DNA from: Polynucleobacter sp. 15G-AUS-farblos
Lineage (GTDB): Bacteria; Pseudomonadota; Gammaproteobacteria; Burkholderiales; Burkholderiaceae
Reading direction: 5' to 3'
Length of the DNA stretch: 64,000 nt
Assembly (NCBI RefSeq): GCF_018882445.1
Contig: NZ_JACVOM010000005.1
Location: 62,001 to 126,000, forward strand
Positions 15,878-63,513 of the stretch are shown here, in pieces (within the stretch, counting starts at the first letter, position 1; every line of letters begins with the position of its first letter). The notes beneath the pieces are model-generated. The model was given only the letters and a program-made list of their open reading frames with translations. It was not told the DNA's origin and did not search any database. The translations under genes and the position numbers were made by a program.

Positions 15878-18040
15878 ATGAGTCAGCGCTTTCATTTGGG
15901 TCTAAAAGTTTGTGTATTTGCCATTACTTCTCAAGCACTCTTCTCCTCGGCACAGATTGCGCCACCTGCAAACTACGATCAGAAGTTAAGTGACGTCATC
16001 GTAAACGCAACGCGTTCTGATACTCCGCTGGATCAAATACCGCTGAACACTACTATCCTTACCAAGGAAGTATTAGAGTCATCACCTGATCAAACGATTG
16101 ATCAGGTTTTGAAAAATGTGCCTGGTGTTTTTCTCAATGATGTTCCCTACTATCAAAAAGATCCAACGGGACAGAGTATTAACGTGCGCGGTCTAGGTTA
16201 TGGGCGAACTCTCGTTCTGATTGATGGCTTGCCTGCAAACGATGCCTTCTACGGTACTGTGCAGTGGAACCAAATGCCTTTGTCATCGATTGAGTCGGTT
16301 GAGTTTGTTCGCGGAGGGGTCTCAAGTCTGTGGGGTAACTATGGCATGGGCGGTGTGATCAACGTCAATACCAGAACTCCCAAAAATAGCTCTCAAGACG
16401 TCACTGCGAGTTATGGTTCATTTGGTACTGGCAATGTATCCGCCTCTAAAGATTTGATCGTCTCTGATGCCATGCAAATGCGGTTTTCGGCAGATTACTT
16501 CTCGAGCGAAGGATTCCAGAACTACGCCACTATTTCTCCTGGATCACCTAGCAATATTAAAAATGGTATGGGGACTGATACGGTAAAGAACACCAATGTC
16601 CGTTTGCAAAATTACTTTAAAGCTACTCCCGATACCAATGGATTCTTTCGGATGGGCTATAGCACGATGGCTGATCTCAGTAATAACTATGCCATTGCGC
16701 CGAACTTGATTCAGACTGCAGATGTAGCTGGTGGCACTACGACGCAGCTTGATGTGGATAAAAAGACGCAAGTGAATGTCTATTACCAGTCCACCAACTT
16801 TTATAAGCAGACGGCAAATAATTTAAGCACTGCACCCAATAAGCCATACATCAACGCTAACTACACTGATCCCTATACAACCTTAGGCGCTTCTGCACAG
16901 TACACGCATGACCTGAAAGCGGCTGGCATCGATCAATATATATTGGGATTAGATGCCAGAAATATTTCCGCATCCAATCAAACCAATAATTTGGCTCCGT
17001 CTAGTGCTGTGACTTCAGTCAACTATGCACAAGGACAGCAAAACTTTTACGGCTTGCTTGGGCAGCTCAAATCAAAATCGAATGCGCTTCCTGTGGAAGC
17101 AACCTTGGGCGCCAGGGTAGATGTTTGGAATAGTCAAACGCCTACTTACTACAACCAAAACACGGGTAGTGCGGCTACCTATCAAGCTATTCCTAATAAA
17201 AGTAAGACGCAACTCAGCCCCTCTCTCGGCCTTTTATACAAGGCGAATAGAGACTGGGATCTGCGTGGTGCTGCTTATCAGGCCTTTCATGCCCCCAGTA
17301 TGAATAACACCTTGAGAAGTTATGGGTCTGCTGTGGGGGGTTGGTATTTAGCTAACCCAAACCTAACGCCTGAAACTATGACGGGTTACGAGGTGGGTAC
17401 TGACTATCGCTGGCGTGGCGGCTTTGCGCAATTTACCGCATTTAATAACTATATTAATAACGCGATTACGAGCTACAAGATTACGAGTGCAAATGCAGCC
17501 TTTGCGAATAGCCTGTGTAGCGCTTCAGGAATTACTGGTTGTGTACCTAACGTTGGTGGTAGTGGATTTACAAACGTCAACTATTACACCAACCAACAGA
17601 ACCTCTTAAGCCGTGGTATTGAAATTCAATATCATCATGATGTGAATTCTCGCTGGGCTCTTGATGGTGGTTATAGCTATACCCGAACTGTTTTGACCTG
17701 GAGCGCCACCAGTGACCCTACCAACACCCAAGTTGGTGGCGTACCCAAAAATATGGCAACCGCCGGTGTGACCTATTACCCTGTGCCTCAAGCCAGCATC
17801 ACTACCAACGTGCGTTATGTCGGCAATTCCTGGATGTCTACAGGTTCATTGCCCGTGCCAGCTTATGCAGTCGTTGGCTTAAAGGCCAACTATCAAATTA
17901 ATTCTCAAGCCTCTGTATATGCTTCGATTGTGAACTTATTGAATCGTCAATATGTGACTTTTAATATTGCTTCGCAGGCAACAGCGTATCAAGCAGGCAT
18001 GCCCCAAGCAATTACCGTTGGCGCGCGGATTAATTTCTAA
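15878..18040 (+). CDS. TonB-dependent outer membrane receptor
   Basis: A 720-aa receptor for energised uptake of a large or scarce ligand. A signal peptide covers about residues 1-25. A TonB-box-like DVIVNATR follows, then the plug (about 50-160) with VRGLGYGRTLVLIDG and GGVINVNTR. The rest is a 22-strand beta barrel ending in the outer-membrane signature phenylalanine (ARINF). There is no Fur box or cobalamin riboswitch in the 21-base gap upstream, so regulation must come from further up. The ligand cannot be told; siderophore, cobalamin and other metal complexes are all possible. Confidence 0.9.
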   Translation: MSQRFHLGLKVCVFAITSQALFSSAQIAPPANYDQKLSDVIVNATRSDTPLDQIPLNTTILTKEVLESSPDQTIDQVLKNVPGVFLNDVPYYQKDPTGQSINVRGLGYGRTLVLIDGLPANDAFYGTVQWNQMPLSSIESVEFVRGGVSSLWGNYGMGGVINVNTRTPKNSSQDVTASYGSFGTGNVSASKDLIVSDAMQMRFSADYFSSEGFQNYATISPGSPSNIKNGMGTDTVKNTNVRLQNYFKATPDTNGFFRMGYSTMADLSNNYAIAPNLIQTADVAGGTTTQLDVDKKTQVNVYYQSTNFYKQTANNLSTAPNKPYINANYTDPYTTLGASAQYTHDLKAAGIDQYILGLDARNISASNQTNNLAPSSAVTSVNYAQGQQNFYGLLGQLKSKSNALPVEATLGARVDVWNSQTPTYYNQNTGSAATYQAIPNKSKTQLSPSLGLLYKANRDWDLRGAAYQAFHAPSMNNTLRSYGSAVGGWYLANPNLTPETMTGYEVGTDYRWRGGFAQFTAFNNYINNAITSYKITSANAAFANSLCSASGITGCVPNVGGSGFTNVNYYTNQQNLLSRGIEIQYHHDVNSRWALDGGYSYTRTVLTWSATSDPTNTQVGGVPKNMATAGVTYYPVPQASITTNVRYVGNSWMSTGSLPVPAYAVVGLKANYQINSQASVYASIVNLLNRQYVTFNIASQATAYQAGMPQAITVGARINF

Positions 18041-27417: not shown

Positions 27418-28233
27418 TTAACTTGAGAAGCCCTTAAACATTAAGCTAACGGCAACGCCAAAGGTGAGAATGGCAAAGATTTGTTGCAATCTAGGACCGC
27501 TCAGTTTTTTGCCTAAGCCTCTCCCCATTAGCAAGCCGCCTAAGGCCCCTAATGAAAAAGGAATGGCAATATTCAGAGCAAGATTACCGGTAGCGGCAGA
27601 TACAAGTGAGCTGCCACTAGAGATGATGGCCAATACTCCCAAGGAAGTAGCAACTATTGATTGAACTGGAAGATTAGTAAAGCGCTTCAAGGCCGGCACA
27701 ATGATGAAGCCACCACCAACTCCAAGAAGGCCAGATAAGAAGCCTGCTAAACCACCTGAAAATAAAAGCGCTCTAGCGCAAGGCAGATTCCAAGTCAGTT
27801 TTCCATGCTCAGGATTGATAAGGCATGGAGGCGGTTTTTTAGGTGGCATCTTGATGCCTAAAATTTCCCTACGTGCCTCTAAATATAAGCGGGTAGAAAC
27901 AAAGAATAAAGTGCAGCTAAATAGAATCAGGAGTGGTTGATTGGGAATTTTCTGCGCCAGCCAAAGACCTACTGGCGAGAGTATTAAACCAATCATCGCC
28001 ATAAATCCCGCTGCCTTATAGCGCAATAGTTTGCTCTTAAGGCCCAATAGAGCGCCAACCCCTGCTGATATCGCAATGGCTGTCAGTGCAATAGGGGCTG
28101 CCTCAGCTACTCCGAGGTGCAGGAAGAATACCAAGAGCGGTACCGACAAAATACCGCCGCCAGCACCTGTCAGGCCCATGAGGATGCCGACAAAGATGCC
28201 CAAGGCTAAAGTGGTCAAGATTAAGTGGTCCAT
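27418..28233 (-). CDS. TauE/SafE-family sulfite or sulfur-compound exporter
   Basis: A 271-aa membrane protein with about eight helices. The repeated glycine motifs GLTGAGGGILSVPLLV (about 21-36) and GLLGVGGGFIIVPAL mark the TauE/SafE (DUF81) family, which exports sulfite or sulfoacetate. It is divergent from a persulfide dioxygenase gene and shares a 24-base dyad with it, so its likely job is to expel the sulfite made by that enzyme. The convergent livF terminator lies just beyond its stop. Confidence 0.88.
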   Translation of the reverse strand: MDHLILTTLALGIFVGILMGLTGAGGGILSVPLLVFFLHLGVAEAAPIALTAIAISAGVGALLGLKSKLLRYKAAGFMAMIGLILSPVGLWLAQKIPNQPLLILFSCTLFFVSTRLYLEARREILGIKMPPKKPPPCLINPEHGKLTWNLPCARALLFSGGLAGFLSGLLGVGGGFIIVPALKRFTNLPVQSIVATSLGVLAIISSGSSLVSAATGNLALNIAIPFSLGALGGLLMGRGLGKKLSGPRLQQIFAILTFGVAVSLMFKGFSS

Positions 28234-28254
28234 TGCATTTTATTTTATATTAAG

Positions 28255-28278
28255 ATAATATATAAATATATATATTAT
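28255..28278. promoter_or_regulatory. 24-bp perfect dyad, probable SqrR/BigR-type operator
   Basis: ATAATATATA at 28255-28264 is mirrored exactly by TATATATTAT at 28269-28278 around AATA. It lies 21 bases before the tauE start and 33 before the dioxygenase start. BigR and SqrR repressors bind AT-rich dyads in front of the same gene pair in other bacteria, so one repressor probably covers both directions. Confidence 0.7.
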
Positions 28279-28311
28279 TTGATCCACCATCAATCGCTCT
28301 GAAAGGCCATT

Positions 28312-29184
28312 GTGAACACTAAAAAAGCTGCAGAAATTGAATCCTTCTTTGATCCTGAGACTTGGACCTTTACTTATGTTGTGTCGGCCGGCAAAGGAAG
28401 TCCCTGTGTTGTGATTGACTCAGTACTGAACTATGACCCCAAGTCAGGGAGGACCGCAACGCGTTCAGCAGATCAGGTTATTGAATATATTCAATCGAAG
28501 CAATTAAAGCTTGAGTGGATTTTAGAAACCCATGCCCATGCAGATCATTTAACTGCTGCGCCTTATTTACAAGAAAAATTGGGTGGTAAGCTGGTCATCG
28601 GAGATCACATTGTGAATGTGCAGAATGTCTTTAAAGGTGTCTTCAATTTAGACTCAGGCTTCGCAACAGATGGCTCACAATTTGATCGCCTATTGAAAGA
28701 AGGTGAATCCTTGGCATTTGGTGATCTGTCATTAAAGGCTTTATTTGTGCCTGGACATACTCCAGCTTGTATGGCTTATGAAATTGGTGATGCCTTATTT
28801 GTAGGTGACACTTTATTTATGCCTGATGTTGGCACTGCTCGATGTGATTTTCCTGGTGGGGACGCTAGAGCACTCTATCAATCGATCCAGAAGCTCTTGG
28901 CTTATCCCAAGGAAACTAAACTGTATATGTGTCATGACTACCCTCCTAATGGCCGCTCACCTGAGCACTGCACCACTGTAGGTGCAGAAAAGGCCAGCAA
29001 TATTCATGTTCACGATGGCATCACTGAAGAGCAATTTGTACAAATGCGCACTAAGCGTGATGACACCTTAGATATGCCTAACTTAATATTGCCGTCGATT
29101 CAGGTCAACATTCGTGCAGGCCATTTTCCAGAGCCAGATAGTAATGGCAAGTCTTATCTCAAAATTCCATTGAATGCGCTTTGA
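28312..29184 (+). CDS. blh: Persulfide dioxygenase, ETHE1/Blh type
   Basis: Metallo-beta-lactamase-fold non-heme iron enzyme (290 aa) oxidising glutathione persulfide to sulfite. The first metal site THAHADH has His74, His76, Asp78 and His79. Further ligands sit in PGHTPAC (about 147-153), DTLFMPDVGTARCD and MCHDYPP. The length and the GTARCDFPGG motif fit the PDO group rather than glyoxalase II. Start is GTG. It leads the plus-strand operon with the regulator and a DUF2892 protein; sulfite would leave through the divergent TauE. Confidence 0.9.
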   Translation: MNTKKAAEIESFFDPETWTFTYVVSAGKGSPCVVIDSVLNYDPKSGRTATRSADQVIEYIQSKQLKLEWILETHAHADHLTAAPYLQEKLGGKLVIGDHIVNVQNVFKGVFNLDSGFATDGSQFDRLLKEGESLAFGDLSLKALFVPGHTPACMAYEIGDALFVGDTLFMPDVGTARCDFPGGDARALYQSIQKLLAYPKETKLYMCHDYPPNGRSPEHCTTVGAEKASNIHVHDGITEEQFVQMRTKRDDTLDMPNLILPSIQVNIRAGHFPEPDSNGKSYLKIPLNAL

Positions 29185-29503
29185 TATGAATATGACGATT
29201 TCAAAATCTGAGTTGAAAAAAATGCAGGCATCAGCAGAAGATGCTTGTAAGTTAATGAAAGTGCTCTCGAATCGAGATCGAATGATGCTCTTATGTGAAA
29301 TCGCCCAAAGCGAAAAGTGTGTTGGCGAGCTGGAAGCTGCTTTGGACTTGCATCAACCTACGCTTTCACAGCAATTGACAGTATTGCGTAAAGAAAAATT
29401 AGTAAAGACCCGCAGAGAAGGCAAGCAAATCTATTACACGCTTTCTAGTCAGGTTGCAGTTGCAGTAATGGGCTTGCTCTATAAGCACTATTGCAAGAAA
29501 TGA
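29174..29503 (+). CDS. bigR: ArsR-family persulfide-sensing repressor (SqrR/BigR-like)
   Basis: A 109-aa winged-helix repressor. The recognition helix region is LHQPTLSQQLTVLRKEKLVKTRREG (about 59-83). Cys41 (LLCEIA) and Cys107 (HYCKK), counted from the ATG at 29174, occupy the positions of the two redox cysteines of SqrR/BigR, which form a tetrasulfide or disulfide when persulfide rises and release DNA. Cys25 and Cys49 are extra. The start overlaps the dioxygenase stop by 11 bases; ATGs at 29186 and 29192 are alternatives and would shift numbering. Likely ligand site: the dyad at 28255. Confidence 0.9.
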   Translation: MRFDMNMTISKSELKKMQASAEDACKLMKVLSNRDRMMLLCEIAQSEKCVGELEAALDLHQPTLSQQLTVLRKEKLVKTRREGKQIYYTLSSQVAVAVMGLLYKHYCKK

Positions 29504-29544
29504 TGCTTGAAATAAACGGAATTACAGTTTGATAAAAGGAGTAC

Positions 29545-29763
29545 ATGATGAAATGTAACGTTGGCGGTATTGATCGGATCTTGAGAATTGCTGTTGGGGC
29601 GCTATTAGTCGCTTTGGCAGCCAGTAATGTAGTCGGTTGGTGGGGCTGGCTGGGGCTCATTCCATTAGCAACTGGACTTTTTCGCTTTTGTCCAGCCTAC
29701 CCATTGCTAGGAATGACTTCTTGCCCAAGTGCTGACAAAGGATCTGCAGCAAACAAGCGTTAA
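29545..29763 (+). CDS. DUF2892 inner membrane protein
   Basis: A 72-aa protein with two hydrophobic segments (about 10-26 and 30-46). The N-terminal KCNVGGIDRILRIAVG and the following CPAYPLLGMTSC are typical of DUF2892, the small membrane domain also fused to rhodanese in E. coli YgaP. Here it is separate but sits in a persulfide operon, so a role in sulfur relay or in anchoring a sulfurtransferase is plausible. The cysteines at positions 4, 54 and 64 could carry sulfane sulfur (inference). AAAGGAG precedes the ATG. Confidence 0.85.
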   Translation: MMKCNVGGIDRILRIAVGALLVALAASNVVGWWGWLGLIPLATGLFRFCPAYPLLGMTSCPSADKGSAANKR

Positions 29764-29787: not shown

Positions 29788-29809
29788 AGGTGTATCGAAA
29801 GTTGCACCT
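29788..29809 (+). terminator. Weak terminator after DUF2892 gene
   Basis: A 7-bp stem AGGTGTA (29788-29794) with TTGCACCT (29802-29809, one wobble pair), loop of about 8, followed by the T-rich CTTTCTTT. Imperfect U-tract, so activity is uncertain. Confidence 0.4.
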
Positions 29810-29838: not shown

Positions 29839-30264
29839 CTAAATCTTGGAAGAGGTGCGAGGCCATTTCGCAAGGCTGTGAAAAATAAAGATTACAAAAA
29901 AGACCAGGCCAGTAAGCCAATGCAACTGGATAGTGATTTCACGAAGCTCTGCTGGACCGTAATACAGCATCCCTCCAGAGATGAGTAGGATCAATAGAAA
30001 ACCAAGCTGGGTAAATCCGCTAAACCGCTTTCTTTTAGATTGATACCCAGCCTTGAGGTGAAAGGGCAATACTGATCCTAGTGCAATACAGGCAAGCATC
30101 GCCGTGAGTCCATGACCTGCCAAAACCAAATGATTGCCCAATAAGGCCCGCTCAATCTGAAATTCATGGCCCAATAGATAAGCGCTTCCAGTGACTGAGC
30201 AGGCCAACATACCTGTCATCACAAATGCCCGTTGCCATCCCGGCATTTTTCCTAGTTGTCTCAT
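29839..30264 (-). CDS. Small four-helix b-type cytochrome-like membrane protein
   Basis: A 141-aa protein with four hydrophobic helices and histidines placed for heme: His45 and His51 in helix 2, His69 at its end, His115 and His129 in helix 4, plus His33. This layout resembles b561-type or DUF4405-like cytochromes, but I cannot name the family with certainty. It overlaps apbE by 4 bases and is the last gene of the Fur-box operon, so it may hand quinol or cytosolic electrons to the flavinylated periplasmic protein. Heme binding is an inference from histidine spacing. Confidence 0.7.
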   Translation of the reverse strand: MRQLGKMPGWQRAFVMTGMLACSVTGSAYLLGHEFQIERALLGNHLVLAGHGLTAMLACIALGSVLPFHLKAGYQSKRKRFSGFTQLGFLLILLISGGMLYYGPAELREITIQLHWLTGLVFFVIFIFHSLAKWPRTSSKI

Positions 30265-31082
30265 AAGGCAATTTGGATTGCTTGGGCGCTATAACGCGCA
30301 AAGCAGGGATGATGTCCCTGTCTTGAGAGGGCTAATACCTTTGTAAGCGCATCAGCATAGACGCACTCTTTAGCCAAGACCGAATAAGATCCAGAAAACT
30401 GCTCATGGATATCGAAGTCTATTTTTGATAAAGGATTGATGATGTGGCTGTGTTGCTGATCTCTTTTAGCAAAATACAAAGCGCTCGTTGCAATTGCCCC
30501 ATTAGATAGGGCGCCTAACTCAATCAAGTGCTGTGGTAATTGCGGGTTGCGAAGATAAATTGTTTGGGGCTCATTTCCAAATACTCTTAAATCACCACCT
30601 GCATTGACTATGCCTGAGCTGACACCTTCTTTAATGAGTGCTTTAACGGCTTCATCTACAGCAAAGCCTTTAGCAATACCGCCTAGATCAAGGCAGAGGG
30701 GTCGCAATGAACAAATTCTATCGTGGTCGATAAAGTAAAGATCCTCAATTCCACCAATGCCATGGTTCGCGAAGTCAATATGTTTAGGCAATAAACCAGC
30801 TGTGATCAGGCGATGACCAATACCGCAATTAAACAAGCCGCCAGAGTGGACATTGAGATCCTGAGCAATTCTGAGTATCTGAGCAGTCCATGGGTGAACT
30901 CGTATTGACTTGCAATGCACTTGCGCATTAATGATCGATAGCTCGCTATCAGCATTATGAAAGCTCATGAGCTGCTCTACTTTTTTAATCTGCTCAAAAG
31001 CACTTTGGATGGCATGATGAGCATTCTGATCTGCTATAGATATTTCAACAAAAGTTCCCAAAAGGGGCTGGCAACGCCTCAT
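30261..31082 (-). CDS. apbE: FAD:protein FMN transferase ApbE
   Basis: Transfers FMN from FAD to a Ser or Thr of a periplasmic or membrane target. 273 aa; seen are MRRCQPLLGTFVEIS at the start, DLGGIAKGFAVDEA near 134-147 and VNAGGDLRVFG near 160-170, the FAD and Mg2+ sites. It has no obvious signal peptide, unlike many ApbE proteins, so either export is Tat/Sec independent of a classical signal, or flavinylation happens before export. The substrate is almost surely the FMN-binding protein encoded immediately upstream (4-base overlap). Confidence 0.92.
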   Translation of the reverse strand: MRRCQPLLGTFVEISIADQNAHHAIQSAFEQIKKVEQLMSFHNADSELSIINAQVHCKSIRVHPWTAQILRIAQDLNVHSGGLFNCGIGHRLITAGLLPKHIDFANHGIGGIEDLYFIDHDRICSLRPLCLDLGGIAKGFAVDEAVKALIKEGVSSGIVNAGGDLRVFGNEPQTIYLRNPQLPQHLIELGALSNGAIATSALYFAKRDQQHSHIINPLSKIDFDIHEQFSGSYSVLAKECVYADALTKVLALSRQGHHPCFARYSAQAIQIAL

Positions 31083-31630
31083 TTTTTAATTTGAATCTGG
31101 GGATGTTTGAGGCTTAGTTCATATAAAACCGAAACTCTCTTCACGCCATCAGTAATATGTTTGCAAGATAGTGTGGCGCCCCCAATATTTTGAATATCTT
31201 GATTTAGCTTGATTGGGTCATTGGCATTTTTGCCGACAAATTGTTTGCGCCACTGGGCTTCTGCCACTTCATATCCGTAAGATTCAACATACTCTAGGAT
31301 TTCAATTCCAGTGATATTGCCGCTAGGACTGAGCCCTACGGCGTAGGTAATCATTTCATGTTTACCTACCACTTCATCGACGATGAACCAGCCCCCGTCA
31401 CTGGATTTCCAAATCCGATCTCCTTGAAAGGGATGTCGAATGCTTGAAGCAGTCCGCATCTTTTCCTGAAGGTCTTCAGAAATAATCATGGGCATCTTAT
31501 TGAGCTGCTTATTAGGCAACAGAATTTTTTGTGCTTGCTCTATAGAAAGGTAAATTTTGGCCTGAGCAATTATCGGTAGACTGATCATAGCTAAGCCTGC
31601 TATAGCTAGTGGGTAAGGTTTCCAGTTCAT
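31079..31630 (-). CDS. Periplasmic FMN-binding domain protein, flavinylation substrate
   Basis: A 183-aa protein with a Sec signal peptide (1-24, cut near AQA-KI). I moved the start from a TTG at 31636 to the ATG at 31630. The C-terminal FMN-bind domain carries IGGATLS; the Thr (residue 153) is the predicted covalent FMN site, matching the RnfG/NqrC-type [ST]GA[ST] motif except that the first Ser/Thr is Gly here. The upstream part (GYGYEVAEAQW) is the domain core. It lies between an outer-membrane protein gene and apbE in a Fur-controlled operon, so it probably carries electrons for extracytoplasmic reduction. Confidence 0.85.
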   Translation of the reverse strand: MNWKPYPLAIAGLAMISLPIIAQAKIYLSIEQAQKILLPNKQLNKMPMIISEDLQEKMRTASSIRHPFQGDRIWKSSDGGWFIVDEVVGKHEMITYAVGLSPSGNITGIEILEYVESYGYEVAEAQWRKQFVGKNANDPIKLNQDIQNIGGATLSCKHITDGVKRVSVLYELSLKHPQIQIKK

Positions 31631-31647
31631 CGTCAATGTTCTTTTGC

Positions 31648-32562
31648 TTAACTTAAAGGGAATCCCACTTTGAGGATGAATTCATTTACAGAATGACTAT
31701 CCCAAACCCGGGCATTTGAACACTCTGCAGTGCCTTCACCCATGCAGGTATTGCCTTTGAGCTGATAGCGCCAAGCGCCAGTGACCCACCAGTCCTTTGT
31801 TGCGTAATGGACATTGGGTCCGATAAAGGTCGCTTTTTGAACTTGGTTCTGAAGGTTGTAACTGGAGTAATCATTGTGCAAGCGCGCCTCCACACCTGCC
31901 GACCACTTTGGTGCAAATCGATAGCTTGCTCCCAGTAAAATGTCGAGCATCGATTCAGGAACATTGCCATTGCCGACAAACTTTAATTGTTCGTTAGCAA
32001 CGACGACGTTCCCAGCTAAGATTAGTCGATCATCAATAAAGTTCGACTGCAGTAGCAAGCGAGCTTCAATCTCATTCTTATTTCTACCTAAGGTGGGTTC
32101 AAGATATAGCCCCACACCTACTGGAGAAGTTACTGGATTAGTGATTCTATAAATCGCCTCTAATGAGCCGCCCTCAATGCCACTTTTTCTATAGGCGGTG
32201 CTTGGATCATGACTTTCAGGGACGCCGTATCCACCAGTGCAAGTGGCCATGTCATCGCAAGCTTCAGGATTGGTGTAGTTTTGATTGGCGTTGGTGTAGT
32301 AAGAATTGATATAGCCCGCAATTTGTAAGTCATTGGTAAGGCCATATTCCAACTCAGTTCTTGCCGTCCACGCTTCAAAGGTACCTGAGGCTTGTTGTTG
32401 ATTGAGTTGCAAACGTTGCTCAAATTCAAGGCTTCCTTTGGGCTGAAGATCTAAGGTATAGATCCAGCCAAAGACACCCTCGCCAGCATGGGCGATGGGG
32501 CTTGATAAAAGAGTGGCAATACAAAGACTGGTGGCAAGGGGCTTTTTAAAAGTAAAGGTCAT
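31648..32562 (-). CDS. Outer-membrane beta-barrel-like protein of Fur-boxed operon
   Basis: A 304-aa protein with a signal peptide (1-26, AHA-GEG). The mature part alternates aromatic and polar residues and ends in the phenylalanine-containing strand NEFILKVGFPLS, as expected for an outer-membrane barrel of about 12-14 strands. It begins GEGVFGWIYTLDLQPKGSLEFEQ, which I associate with the DUF6662 group of unknown function, from memory. Four cysteines (CDDMATC and CMGEGTAEC loops) could form disulfides in surface loops. First gene after the tandem Fur boxes, so it is likely the iron- or reductant-facing pore. Confidence 0.75.
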   Translation of the reverse strand: MTFTFKKPLATSLCIATLLSSPIAHAGEGVFGWIYTLDLQPKGSLEFEQRLQLNQQQASGTFEAWTARTELEYGLTNDLQIAGYINSYYTNANQNYTNPEACDDMATCTGGYGVPESHDPSTAYRKSGIEGGSLEAIYRITNPVTSPVGVGLYLEPTLGRNKNEIEARLLLQSNFIDDRLILAGNVVVANEQLKFVGNGNVPESMLDILLGASYRFAPKWSAGVEARLHNDYSSYNLQNQVQKATFIGPNVHYATKDWWVTGAWRYQLKGNTCMGEGTAECSNARVWDSHSVNEFILKVGFPLS

Positions 32563-32592
32563 GTTTTAAGTGAGGTGGTTGAAAAATATAAA

Positions 32593-32645
32593 TGAGAATG
32601 GTTCTCAATATAACATAGCAAATAAGAATGATTCTCAATTGAGAA
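32593..32645 (-). promoter_or_regulatory. Tandem Fur boxes
   Basis: Box 1 is TGAGAA-TGG-TTCTCA at 32593-32607, a perfect 6-3-6 dyad. Box 2 has AGAA-TGA-TTCT at 32625-32635, overlapping a perfect 14-base palindrome TTCTCAATTGAGAA at 32632-32645. Both contain the GAGAAT/ATTCTC halves of Fur sites. They lie 31-83 bases upstream of the outer-membrane protein start, over the expected promoter, so iron should repress the four-gene operon. The divergent DUF3820 gene starts 70 bases away. Confidence 0.85.
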
Positions 32646-61416: not shown

Positions 61417-63513
61417 ATGAGTAATGCAATTCAAAAATTGATGGAGCCTCGCAGTATTGCGGTTATTGGCGCATCAACTGATCCGAAAAAAACTGCAGGA
61501 AGGCCTATAGCTTATTTGCAGAAACACCACTTCAAAGGAAAAATTTATCCTGTCAATCCTAGGGTAGAAGAGATTGCAGGTTTGAAGTGCTACCCAGATA
61601 TTGGATCTCTACCTGAGACCCCCGATGTTGCCATCATCATGGTGGGAACAGATAAGGCGCTGAGTGCAGTTCAGGAGTTATCTCAACGCGGTACACCTGC
61701 AGCGATTGTTTTAACCAGTGGCTTTGCAGAGCACGGACCAGAAGGTTTAAAAAAACAAGAAGAGTTGATTGCTGCTGCTGGCGCAATGCGCATCCTGGGG
61801 CCTAATACGATTGGCATGGTCAATGTAACTGATGACATACCTTTGTCTCCAAGTAGCGCCTTAGAGATGGATGAATTTCCAAAGGGTGGTGTTAGCGTGA
61901 TCTCACAAAGTGGTGGCATTTTGGGGTCGCTGCTATCACGTGCGGCAGCTTCAGGCTTAGGACTTTCAAAATTGGTTTCCACTAGCAATGAAGCTGACTT
62001 AGGTATGGCTGATTTTGTTAATTATTTAGTTGACGATGCTAGTACTAAAGTAATCGTGCTGTATATCGAGAGTATTAGACATCCAGAGCGATTTCGTGCA
62101 GCAGCTTTAAGAGCTAGGCAGGCCGGCAAGCCGATTGTGGTTTATAAGGTTGGCAAATCCGAAGCGGGTATTAAAGCAGCGGTTTCTCATACTGGTGCCT
62201 TAGCTGGCACTGACAAAATGTATGACGCCTTATTTAAGCAAACTGGAATTATTCGCGCCAATAAATTCTCTGATTTTTTGGATATACCAGCAGCGCTTTC
62301 TTCTGGAAGGGTTCTCAAGGGTAAGCGGGTTGCCATTTTGACCTCTACTGGTGGAGCGGGAACCTTAGTTGCTGATAGTCTAGGTGAGTGGGGTTTTGAA
62401 ACACCAGTACCCGATGAAAAAACGGCTGCAAGACTACGCGCCTTGCAGCCGGGTGATCAAGCAGTGTTAGACCGCAATCCGATTGATGTCACCCTAGCTG
62501 GTTTGCAACCCGATTTGCTGCGTGGCGCTATCAGCGCATTGCTGGACAGTCCAAGCTACGATGCTTTGATCTTGATCTTAGGTTCTTCGAGTCTATCGAT
62601 GCCCGACTTGATGGCGGGGGCAGTGCGTGATTGCATGCAAACTAGTGAGAAGCCTGTCATTGCTTATGTCAGCCCCCATGCGCCTATTGCCGGAGCGCTC
62701 ATGACGAAGTTGGGTGTACCTGCATTCTCACAGCCTGAAAGTTGTAGTGTGGCCTTATCGAGCATGTTGCATGCTAGTAGTCTGCGTGGCGGTATTACTG
62801 CTACGGGTTCGCAATCTACTATTCCTAAGGCTCTTGATGCTTCACTGTTGCATGGATCCTTGAATGAGCATCAGGCAAGGAATCTCTTTGCGGCTTTTGG
62901 TATTCCGGGAGTTCGTGAAACCGTAGTCAATGCGCAGCAGCCGAATTTAGACGCCGTGAATGATTTAGGTGAAAAATGCGTTCTCAAAATTTTGTCAAAT
63001 GAGATTACGCATAAAACTGAAGTGGGTGGCGTTGCGTTAAATATACCTATTGCAGAAATTGCAGAAAAGCTTCATGCCATGGCGGCGGAAGTGAAAATAA
63101 AGTCTGGCGCGGACATAGAGCAGTTTCTCGTTCAAGAAATGGCTTCAGGTGGAATGGAGTTCATGGTGGGAATGCACCGTGATCCTCTGGGCACAGCTAT
63201 TTTGGTTGGTATGGGTGGGGTTACGGCAGAACTTTTTAAAGATACCAATATGCGTTTGATTTCTCCTGGAAAAGCATTGAGCTCAGCAGAGGTATTGGAG
63301 ATGCTACAAGAGTTAAAAACATGGCCCTTGCTAGATGGCTATCGCGGCAGACCCAGGTGTGATGTCGATGCTTTAGTCAACGCGATTGTTCAATTTTCAA
63401 CCATGGTTGCTGCTATGGGTGATCGCTTGATTGAATGTGAAATCAATCCTATCTTTGTATTTCCTGCAGGTCATGGGGTAAAGGCTGCAGATGGCATTGC
63501 TGTTTTGAACTAA
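61417..63513 (+). CDS. ADP-forming acyl-CoA synthetase (NDP-forming, Acd/PatZ-type core)
   Basis: A 698-aa fused enzyme joining acid and CoA with ATP going to ADP and Pi. Order seen: CoA-binding domain (10-130, AVIGASTDPKKTAGRP), ligase domain with phospho-histidine His258 in VSHTGALAGTD, and ATP-grasp domain from about 480 (VLKILSNEITHKTEVGGV). No acetyltransferase domain is attached, unlike PatZ. With the hydratase and receptor it would activate an imported acid to its CoA ester. Starts 13 bases after the hydratase gene. Confidence 0.9.
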   Translation: MSNAIQKLMEPRSIAVIGASTDPKKTAGRPIAYLQKHHFKGKIYPVNPRVEEIAGLKCYPDIGSLPETPDVAIIMVGTDKALSAVQELSQRGTPAAIVLTSGFAEHGPEGLKKQEELIAAAGAMRILGPNTIGMVNVTDDIPLSPSSALEMDEFPKGGVSVISQSGGILGSLLSRAAASGLGLSKLVSTSNEADLGMADFVNYLVDDASTKVIVLYIESIRHPERFRAAALRARQAGKPIVVYKVGKSEAGIKAAVSHTGALAGTDKMYDALFKQTGIIRANKFSDFLDIPAALSSGRVLKGKRVAILTSTGGAGTLVADSLGEWGFETPVPDEKTAARLRALQPGDQAVLDRNPIDVTLAGLQPDLLRGAISALLDSPSYDALILILGSSSLSMPDLMAGAVRDCMQTSEKPVIAYVSPHAPIAGALMTKLGVPAFSQPESCSVALSSMLHASSLRGGITATGSQSTIPKALDASLLHGSLNEHQARNLFAAFGIPGVRETVVNAQQPNLDAVNDLGEKCVLKILSNEITHKTEVGGVALNIPIAEIAEKLHAMAAEVKIKSGADIEQFLVQEMASGGMEFMVGMHRDPLGTAILVGMGGVTAELFKDTNMRLISPGKALSSAEVLEMLQELKTWPLLDGYRGRPRCDVDALVNAIVQFSTMVAAMGDRLIECEINPIFVFPAGHGVKAADGIAVLN

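Follow-up and report, generated by a model that had tools for sequence, protein, structure and literature searches.

In the present study a window of 64,000 nucleotides from the genome of Polynucleobacter sp. 15G-AUS-farblos (2.2 Mb assembly, 38 contigs) was analyzed, which comprises positions 62,001 to 126,000 of contig NZ_JACVOM010000005.1 and contains a group of four genes that are all encoded on the minus strand. In the order of transcription, two Fur-like boxes are followed by the genes for a DUF6662 barrel, an FMN_bind protein, ApbE and a four-helix membrane protein. The first-pass annotation of this DNA had described the locus as one unit with tandem Fur boxes, an outer-membrane-type barrel, a periplasmic FMN_bind protein with a predicted threonine for flavin mononucleotide (FMN), ApbE and a histidine-rich four-helix membrane protein, and these assignments were borne out by the gene coordinates, the Pfam matches and the structure models described below. 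The following features were found (aa, amino acids):

32623-32637, no strand assigned: Fur-like box 1, 7-1-7 palindrome TAAGAATGATTCTCA, covers the likely -35 region
32593-32607, no strand assigned: Fur-like box 2, TGAGAATGGTTCTCA, just past the likely -10 region and 30 bases from box 1
31648-32562, minus strand: DUF6662 outer-membrane beta-barrel, 304 aa (Pfam; signal peptide judged by eye; 12 strands in the model)
31079-31630, minus strand: FMN_bind protein, exported, 183 aa, predicted FMN on Thr153 in DIQNIGGAT (Pfam; RnfG/NqrC relatives in the PDB)
30261-31082, minus strand: ApbE (FAD:protein FMN transferase), 273 aa (Pfam; ApbE relatives in the PDB; N-terminus comparison)
29839-30264, minus strand: four-helix membrane protein, 141 aa, predicted di-heme cytochrome b (conserved His51, His69, His115 and His129; model; fold comparison)
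29788-29809, no strand assigned: terminator-like hairpin, a consensus match listed for the plus strand, between the convergent ends of the operon and a YgaP-like gene (plus strand)

The gene arrangement supports the reading of the four genes as a single transcription unit. At two of the three junctions, FMN_bind/ApbE and ApbE/four-helix, the genes overlap by 4 bases (ATGA), as had been noted before, and the barrel gene is separated from the FMN_bind gene by 17 bases. The start of the latter was placed at the ATG at 31630, while its open frame as listed begins earlier with a TTG at 31636. The terminator-like hairpin is situated just 3' of the operon; six such sites were observed in the window compared to 3.5 expected. 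A promoter scan of the window returned two sites, both on the plus strand and none for the operon strand, and a looser script found a weak minus-strand candidate at the operon (TTGAGA-17-TGTTAT, 9/12).

The gene order is conserved far beyond this genome. In a collection of genome contigs, relatives of the operon's FMN_bind protein are encoded at 399 places, and among the best 80 of these 399, which were examined, the full order barrel, FMN_bind, ApbE and four-helix gene was found in 74, the other six loci being cut by contig ends. These 80 loci include many Polynucleobacter contigs, but also Comamonadaceae bins, an Azonexaceae genome and Sheuella. Of 299 family genomes drawn separately, 49 encode the FMN_bind protein, and 37 loci from these were read: 21 loci of the genus with all four genes (frame-broken in L043 and L051), six DUF6662-type loci outside the genus, five of them with a four-helix gene detected by tblastn, and ten with FMN_bind and ApbE genes and no detectable DUF6662 gene. 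Starting from the barrel, a DUF6662 search of 397 Pseudomonadota genomes gave 11 matches, five in the genus and six in five other families, and all six non-genus genomes carry FMN_bind, ApbE and four-helix genes in the same order (the four-helix gene recognized by eye). On a Sphingomonas plasmid, the NCBI names of the genes read DUF6662 family protein, FMN-binding protein, FAD:protein FMN transferase and hypothetical protein. A chance co-location of the four genes was ruled out, since their order is maintained across families and classes. Within Polynucleobacter, the four-helix gene was detected in 137/186 genomes and in 113/144 good ones, weak hits included. Single genomes of the genus harbor frame-broken copies of operon genes (L043, L051, L139), which suggests that the operon was lost in some lineages.

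The Fur-like boxes were scored as 15-mers against the consensus TGA(G/T)AATNATT(A/C)TCA. With up to two mismatches allowed, matches are not unusual within the window by itself (4 found, 2.63 expected). In the whole genome, only four sites with at most one mismatch exist, two of which belong to the operon; the others precede the genes for a FutA/FbpA-type protein (closest PDB entry at 1e-97, followed by one named iron transport protein at 1.7e-91) and for a HiPIP. Genome sites with up to two mismatches were rejected as a Fur regulon, because 12 sites were found compared to 11 for the reversed-pattern control. For the comparative test, 73 of the 80 loci with a clean barrel start and 150 bases upstream were used (L099, L115, L123, L127, L148, L149 and L155 were left out); those from one genus are not independent of each other. 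Upstream of the barrel gene a 15-mer scoring at least 13 was found in 68/73 loci and one scoring at least 14 in 65/73, whereas stretches upstream of other open frames at the same loci reached these scores in 1/775 and 0/775, and shuffled upstream stretches in 15/1460 and 0/1460 cases, respectively. Two boxes at a distance of 27 to 30 bases were present in 60/73 loci; no box of at least 13 was found in L150, L151, L153, L154 and L161. Farther relatives have weaker boxes: of the six distant DUF6662 loci, five score 12 to 14 and L182 has no box, and the best score in two sphingomonad loci is 12. It is the genome-wide and comparative counts, not the window count alone, that place the boxes beyond chance. 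The promoter of the operon thus apparently carries a Fur-like box that is conserved in relatives, and control of the operon by Fur is predicted. The first-pass annotation had proposed to look for the gene order and the boxes in related genomes and named their absence as grounds for giving up its view; both proved to be conserved, so that these grounds fall away.

The FMN_bind protein matches its Pfam family with an E-value of 8.2e-11 (42.8 bits, cut-off 22), and its PDB relatives are RnfG and NqrC. By eye, its N-terminus is signal-like with an AQA site, and its relatives also begin with signal-like sequences. A twin-basic motif within the first 14 residues occurs in one of 126 loci only, L185, where the FMN_bind protein has a twin-arginine signal and a Rieske gene (1841-2233) follows directly after the four-helix gene. 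Thr153, a numbering that is correct when counted from the ATG, is kept in all 127 loci covering the position, and covalent binding of FMN to this residue is predicted. The published flavinylation 7-mer D-x-x-[S/T]-G-A-[S/T] places an Asp six residues before the Thr (PMC12052999), whereas the window's protein reads QNIGGAT and the family motif is DIxNI(S/G)GAT. Its Asp lies eight residues before the Thr in 125/127 loci and at the published position in 0/127; moreover, the Ser/Thr three residues before the target Thr is replaced by Gly in 78/127 loci. In one protein that was tested, loss of the Asp had minor effects only (PMC12052999). A Cys-x-His following Thr153 was discarded as a defining feature, because the Cys is present in 108/126 loci and replaced by Ser in 14.

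ApbE was identified by its Pfam match (E 8.1e-39) and by ApbE relatives in the PDB. In the whole genome, the sole ApbE match and the sole FMN_bind match at E 0.001 are those of the operon, therefore both proteins are presumably made for each other. In such systems ApbE is usually exported or lipidated, and most characterized ApbE proteins are lipoproteins, while one cytosolic ApbE with a soluble substrate has been named (PMC12052999). The operon's ApbE begins with MRRCQPLLGTF, no earlier in-frame start codon exists, and there is neither a signal peptide nor room for one. A comparison of ApbE N-termini from 126 loci, a set that counts some genomes twice, showed that no more than 15 residues precede the conserved GT motif in 97; another 25 could be longer, although their most hydrophobic 11-residue stretch averages only 1.61, and four missed by the motif search are short by eye. 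Signal peptides and export signals were judged by eye throughout. Since the substrate is exported while ApbE has no signal, either the substrate would be flavinylated before export or ApbE would leave the cytosol by an unrecognized route; this pairing makes flavinylation before export testable. In the literature passages covered, FMN loading in the cytosol was not described for an exported ApbE substrate.

The fourth gene encodes a protein whose four central histidines (His51, His69, His115, His129) are conserved in 45/45 aligned rows and in 73 to 74 of 74 clean frames. Its structure model (pLDDT, the model's own confidence score, 88.3) has four helices instead of the six of DUF4405, and in a fold comparison this bundle resembles di-heme cytochromes b and the E. 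coli superoxide oxidase; the protein is accordingly predicted to be a di-heme cytochrome b. A Foldseek search with the model gave no match at E 0.001, and a PDB search with the sequence profile returned only an antenna peptide (E 0.28). With DUF4405 (PF14358) the protein scores 14.7 bits, below the gathering cut-off of 26.7, and 30 of 45 relatives touch this family at E 0.1 or better (best 1.1e-4). Ferric_reduct was touched by one of the 45 relatives (0.0094), and no MsrQ or ferric-reductase match was found for the window's own protein.

The barrel matches DUF6662 (PF20367) with E 8.6e-11 and 42.3 bits, above the gathering cut-off of 27, although its best match spans only profile positions 218-278 of 308. 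A VIA-align comparison of its predicted 12-stranded structure gave a secretion channel as the closest fold, with small-molecule channels and autotransporters also among the nearest. The term DUF6662 is absent from the open-licence PMC papers searched. Genome G064 holds the full operon and, at a separate place (L187, 3693-4607), an additional DUF6662 gene that has a Fur-like box of its own but no accompanying FMN_bind or ApbE gene; it is next to genes that in other species adjoin the operon. Furthermore, a small open frame of 59-64 aa (MEIQNLLVAALTHLVKFQ...) lies between the barrel and FMN_bind genes in 26/80 loci, e.g. at 6813-6992 of L091. It is absent from the window. Its copies differ mainly at third codon positions, one of them (L135) is interrupted by a stop codon, and no Pfam match was found in three copies tested.

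The barrel is also the part that varies. In sister operons (L059-L067, L069, L191, L192), the FMN_bind protein and a signal-less ApbE are encoded together with another porin or an unmatched protein, and the four-helix protein is present where readable (L066, L067, L069, L192). The exchangeable part is therefore the outer-membrane barrel. Among the matches listed for these operons a MauG-like peroxidase is often present, and L191 encodes multicopper oxidases and a ferritin-like protein. No box of at least 13 was found in five of the six sister loci scanned, L067 having one. In a tree of 39 FMN_bind proteins, the barrel type and the porin type stand apart with weak support (79/90).

Several described systems resemble the operon in part. 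The DUF4405-ApbE clusters (Huang et al. 2024, PMC11334425) likewise combine apbE with a histidine-rich membrane cytochrome with four central histidines, and heme b has been demonstrated for one DUF4405 protein (PMC11334425). However, those proteins have six helices and often a Flavodoxin_4 substrate, whereas the operon has four helices, an FMN_bind substrate, the DUF6662 barrel, Fur-like boxes and a DUF4405 score below the cut-off. PepSY-like systems and FoxB also unite a membrane cytochrome with ApbE and a substrate and are linked to iron reduction, and Fur repression of PepSY-like flavinylated systems has been reported in Shewanella and Caulobacter (PMC8238504, PMC11334425). A separate paper on Fur in Shewanella does not mention ApbE or FMN in its main text. 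In contrast to these systems, the operon has no PepSY, DUF2271 or DUF4198 match in Pfam, PepSY (PF03929/PF16357) being absent among the matches of the four proteins even at E 1. MsrQ-like and other flavinylated systems, some of which carry a VIT1 iron transporter, share the membrane electron path to a flavinylated protein (PMC8238504), but the window's protein lacks the respective matches, and DUF6662 does not appear in the main text of that paper. RnfG and NqrC have the same FMN_bind fold and a threonine-linked FMN, which is predicted here, but the protein studied here stands alone, and the operon contains no genes for Rnf or Nqr partners. Finally, the inner-membrane protein VciB of Vibrio (cited in PMC8238504, PMC7376174) has the extracytosolic iron reductase activity proposed here, but is PepSY-like and, in the papers citing it, not associated with flavinylation genes. 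By the Pfam and helix-number tests, the operon is outside the named PepSY and DUF4405 classes; by analogy, its mode of action may be that of the reductases linked to flavinylation in PMC8238504 and PMC11334425. As the first-pass annotation had supposed, no named system with this gene set was found in the open-licence PMC literature searched, and no tested function of the set was found either. The overall interpretation of that annotation stands as regards the single unit, the Fur-like boxes, the barrel, the flavinylation-type exported protein and the cytochrome-like histidines, whereas it had overlooked the signal-less ApbE, the deviation from the published motif and the version with another porin, which mostly has no clear Fur box.

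Collectively, we consider it fairly probable that the operon serves iron assimilation under Fur repression, by reducing ferric iron in the periplasm. Iron shortage would release Fur from both boxes, so that the four genes would be transcribed together. The four-helix cytochrome would draw electrons from the quinol pool and, by way of two b hemes, move them through the inner membrane; quinol is the presumed donor because an NAD(P)-binding gene is absent from the operon. The operon's ApbE would load FMN onto Thr153 of the FMN_bind protein, which would receive the electrons in the periplasm and reduce Fe(III), free or ligand-bound, that enters via the DUF6662 barrel. The resulting Fe(II) might be imported by FeoB where present, otherwise by another importer; candidates in this genome are the ZIP protein and the transporter that belongs to the FutA-type protein with the Fur-like box.

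The distribution of FeoB, the Fe(II) importer, fits such a role. It is encoded in 113/186 genomes of the genus and in 92/144 good ones. With strong hits of the cytochrome gene (E <=1e-20), 77 good genomes have both genes, 25 the cytochrome only, 15 FeoB only and 27 neither (odds ratio 5.5); when weaker hits are also counted, the numbers are 85, 28, 7 and 24 (odds ratio 10.4), counts that include shared ancestry in both cases. The co-occurrence is thus compatible with a reductase feeding Fe(II) transport. However, the genome analyzed here is itself one of the 25 cytochrome-only genomes; it shows no FeoB_C, FTR1 or Nramp match, but has a ZIP match and five TonB receptor matches. The sister operons indicate that the core of FMN_bind, ApbE and four-helix proteins may serve more than iron. 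According to published work, Polynucleobacter species differ in their Fe(II) and Fe(III) uptake genes (PMC5018217), P. asymbioticus is held to be unable to use the Fe(III) of its medium (PMC6629928), and in Sphingobium SYK-6 FeoB takes part in iron uptake and no vciB-like gene was found (PMC7376174).

If the ferric-reductase reading is true, DUF6662 would gain a role. FeoB needs ferrous iron, and a periplasmic reductase making it has not been identified in every Feo user; the operon is a concrete candidate for such an enzyme and may bear on the niche of the freshwater genus Polynucleobacter. The more far-reaching version, i.e. an unnamed, DUF6662-marked family of periplasmic enzymes that reduce Fe(III) and supply Fe(II) in Beta- and Alphaproteobacteria as well as in other, unnamed proteobacterial families, and whose flavoprotein is loaded with FMN in the cytosol by a signal-less ApbE and then exported, is speculative and on balance doubtful.

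An unlikely but coherent alternative is a siderophore or xenosiderophore reductase, in which the flavoprotein strips iron from TonB-imported ferric complexes like FoxB, while the barrel, instead of taking up iron, serves to export or recycle the ligand. The five TonB-dependent receptor matches in the genome, the secretion channel as closest barrel fold and a TonB receptor about 2 kb away from the sister-type locus L192 would fit, as would the inclusion of the PepSY-like FoxB in a published family of membrane siderophore reductases (PMC11334425). However, none of the four genome Fur-like sites with at most one mismatch precedes a TonB receptor, and inspection by eye of the open frames at the six distant DUF6662 loci revealed neither a TonB receptor nor a siderophore gene. 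A slightly less plausible explanation would be that the core has a different substrate, for example copper, oxidants or periplasmic thiols that have been damaged, the iron link being regulatory only. Some relatives stand beside copper or heavy-metal genes (L054 by eye; the multicopper oxidases of L191), and both the peroxidase and the missing boxes of the porin-type loci, together with the resemblance of the four-helix model to superoxide oxidase, point in this direction, whereas the Fur-like boxes in 68/73 barrel-type loci and an iron-uptake-type neighborhood in one distant genome argue against this explanation. In that genome, the module directly follows a series of genes for imelysin, di-heme oxidoreductase, imelysin and DUF1513. 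Outward electron transfer, i.e. a reduction of extracellular Fe(III), humics or other acceptors by barrel and flavoprotein, is improbable: both proteins share one operon and Polynucleobacter inhabits humic waters, but the operon has one FMN domain, no multi-heme protein, a barrel nearest to secretion and small-molecule channels and autotransporters, and boxes of a starvation-type regulator. The reverse direction, in which periplasmic flavin or Fe(II) would donate electrons to the quinone pool via the cytochrome, as superoxide oxidase, which the model resembles, feeds quinone, is hardly credible, being difficult to reconcile with induction under iron starvation.

Regarding the surroundings, one of the five TonB-dependent receptor genes lies in the window (15878-18040) and has no Fur-like site with up to two mismatches nearby. 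The genes adjoining the operon at 27418-29763 encode a TauE-like permease, a metallo-beta-lactamase, an ArsR-type regulator and YgaP-like proteins, which we take to be a sulfide or persulfide detoxification set; a metallo-beta-lactamase gene is found near the operon in 13/21 Polynucleobacter loci.

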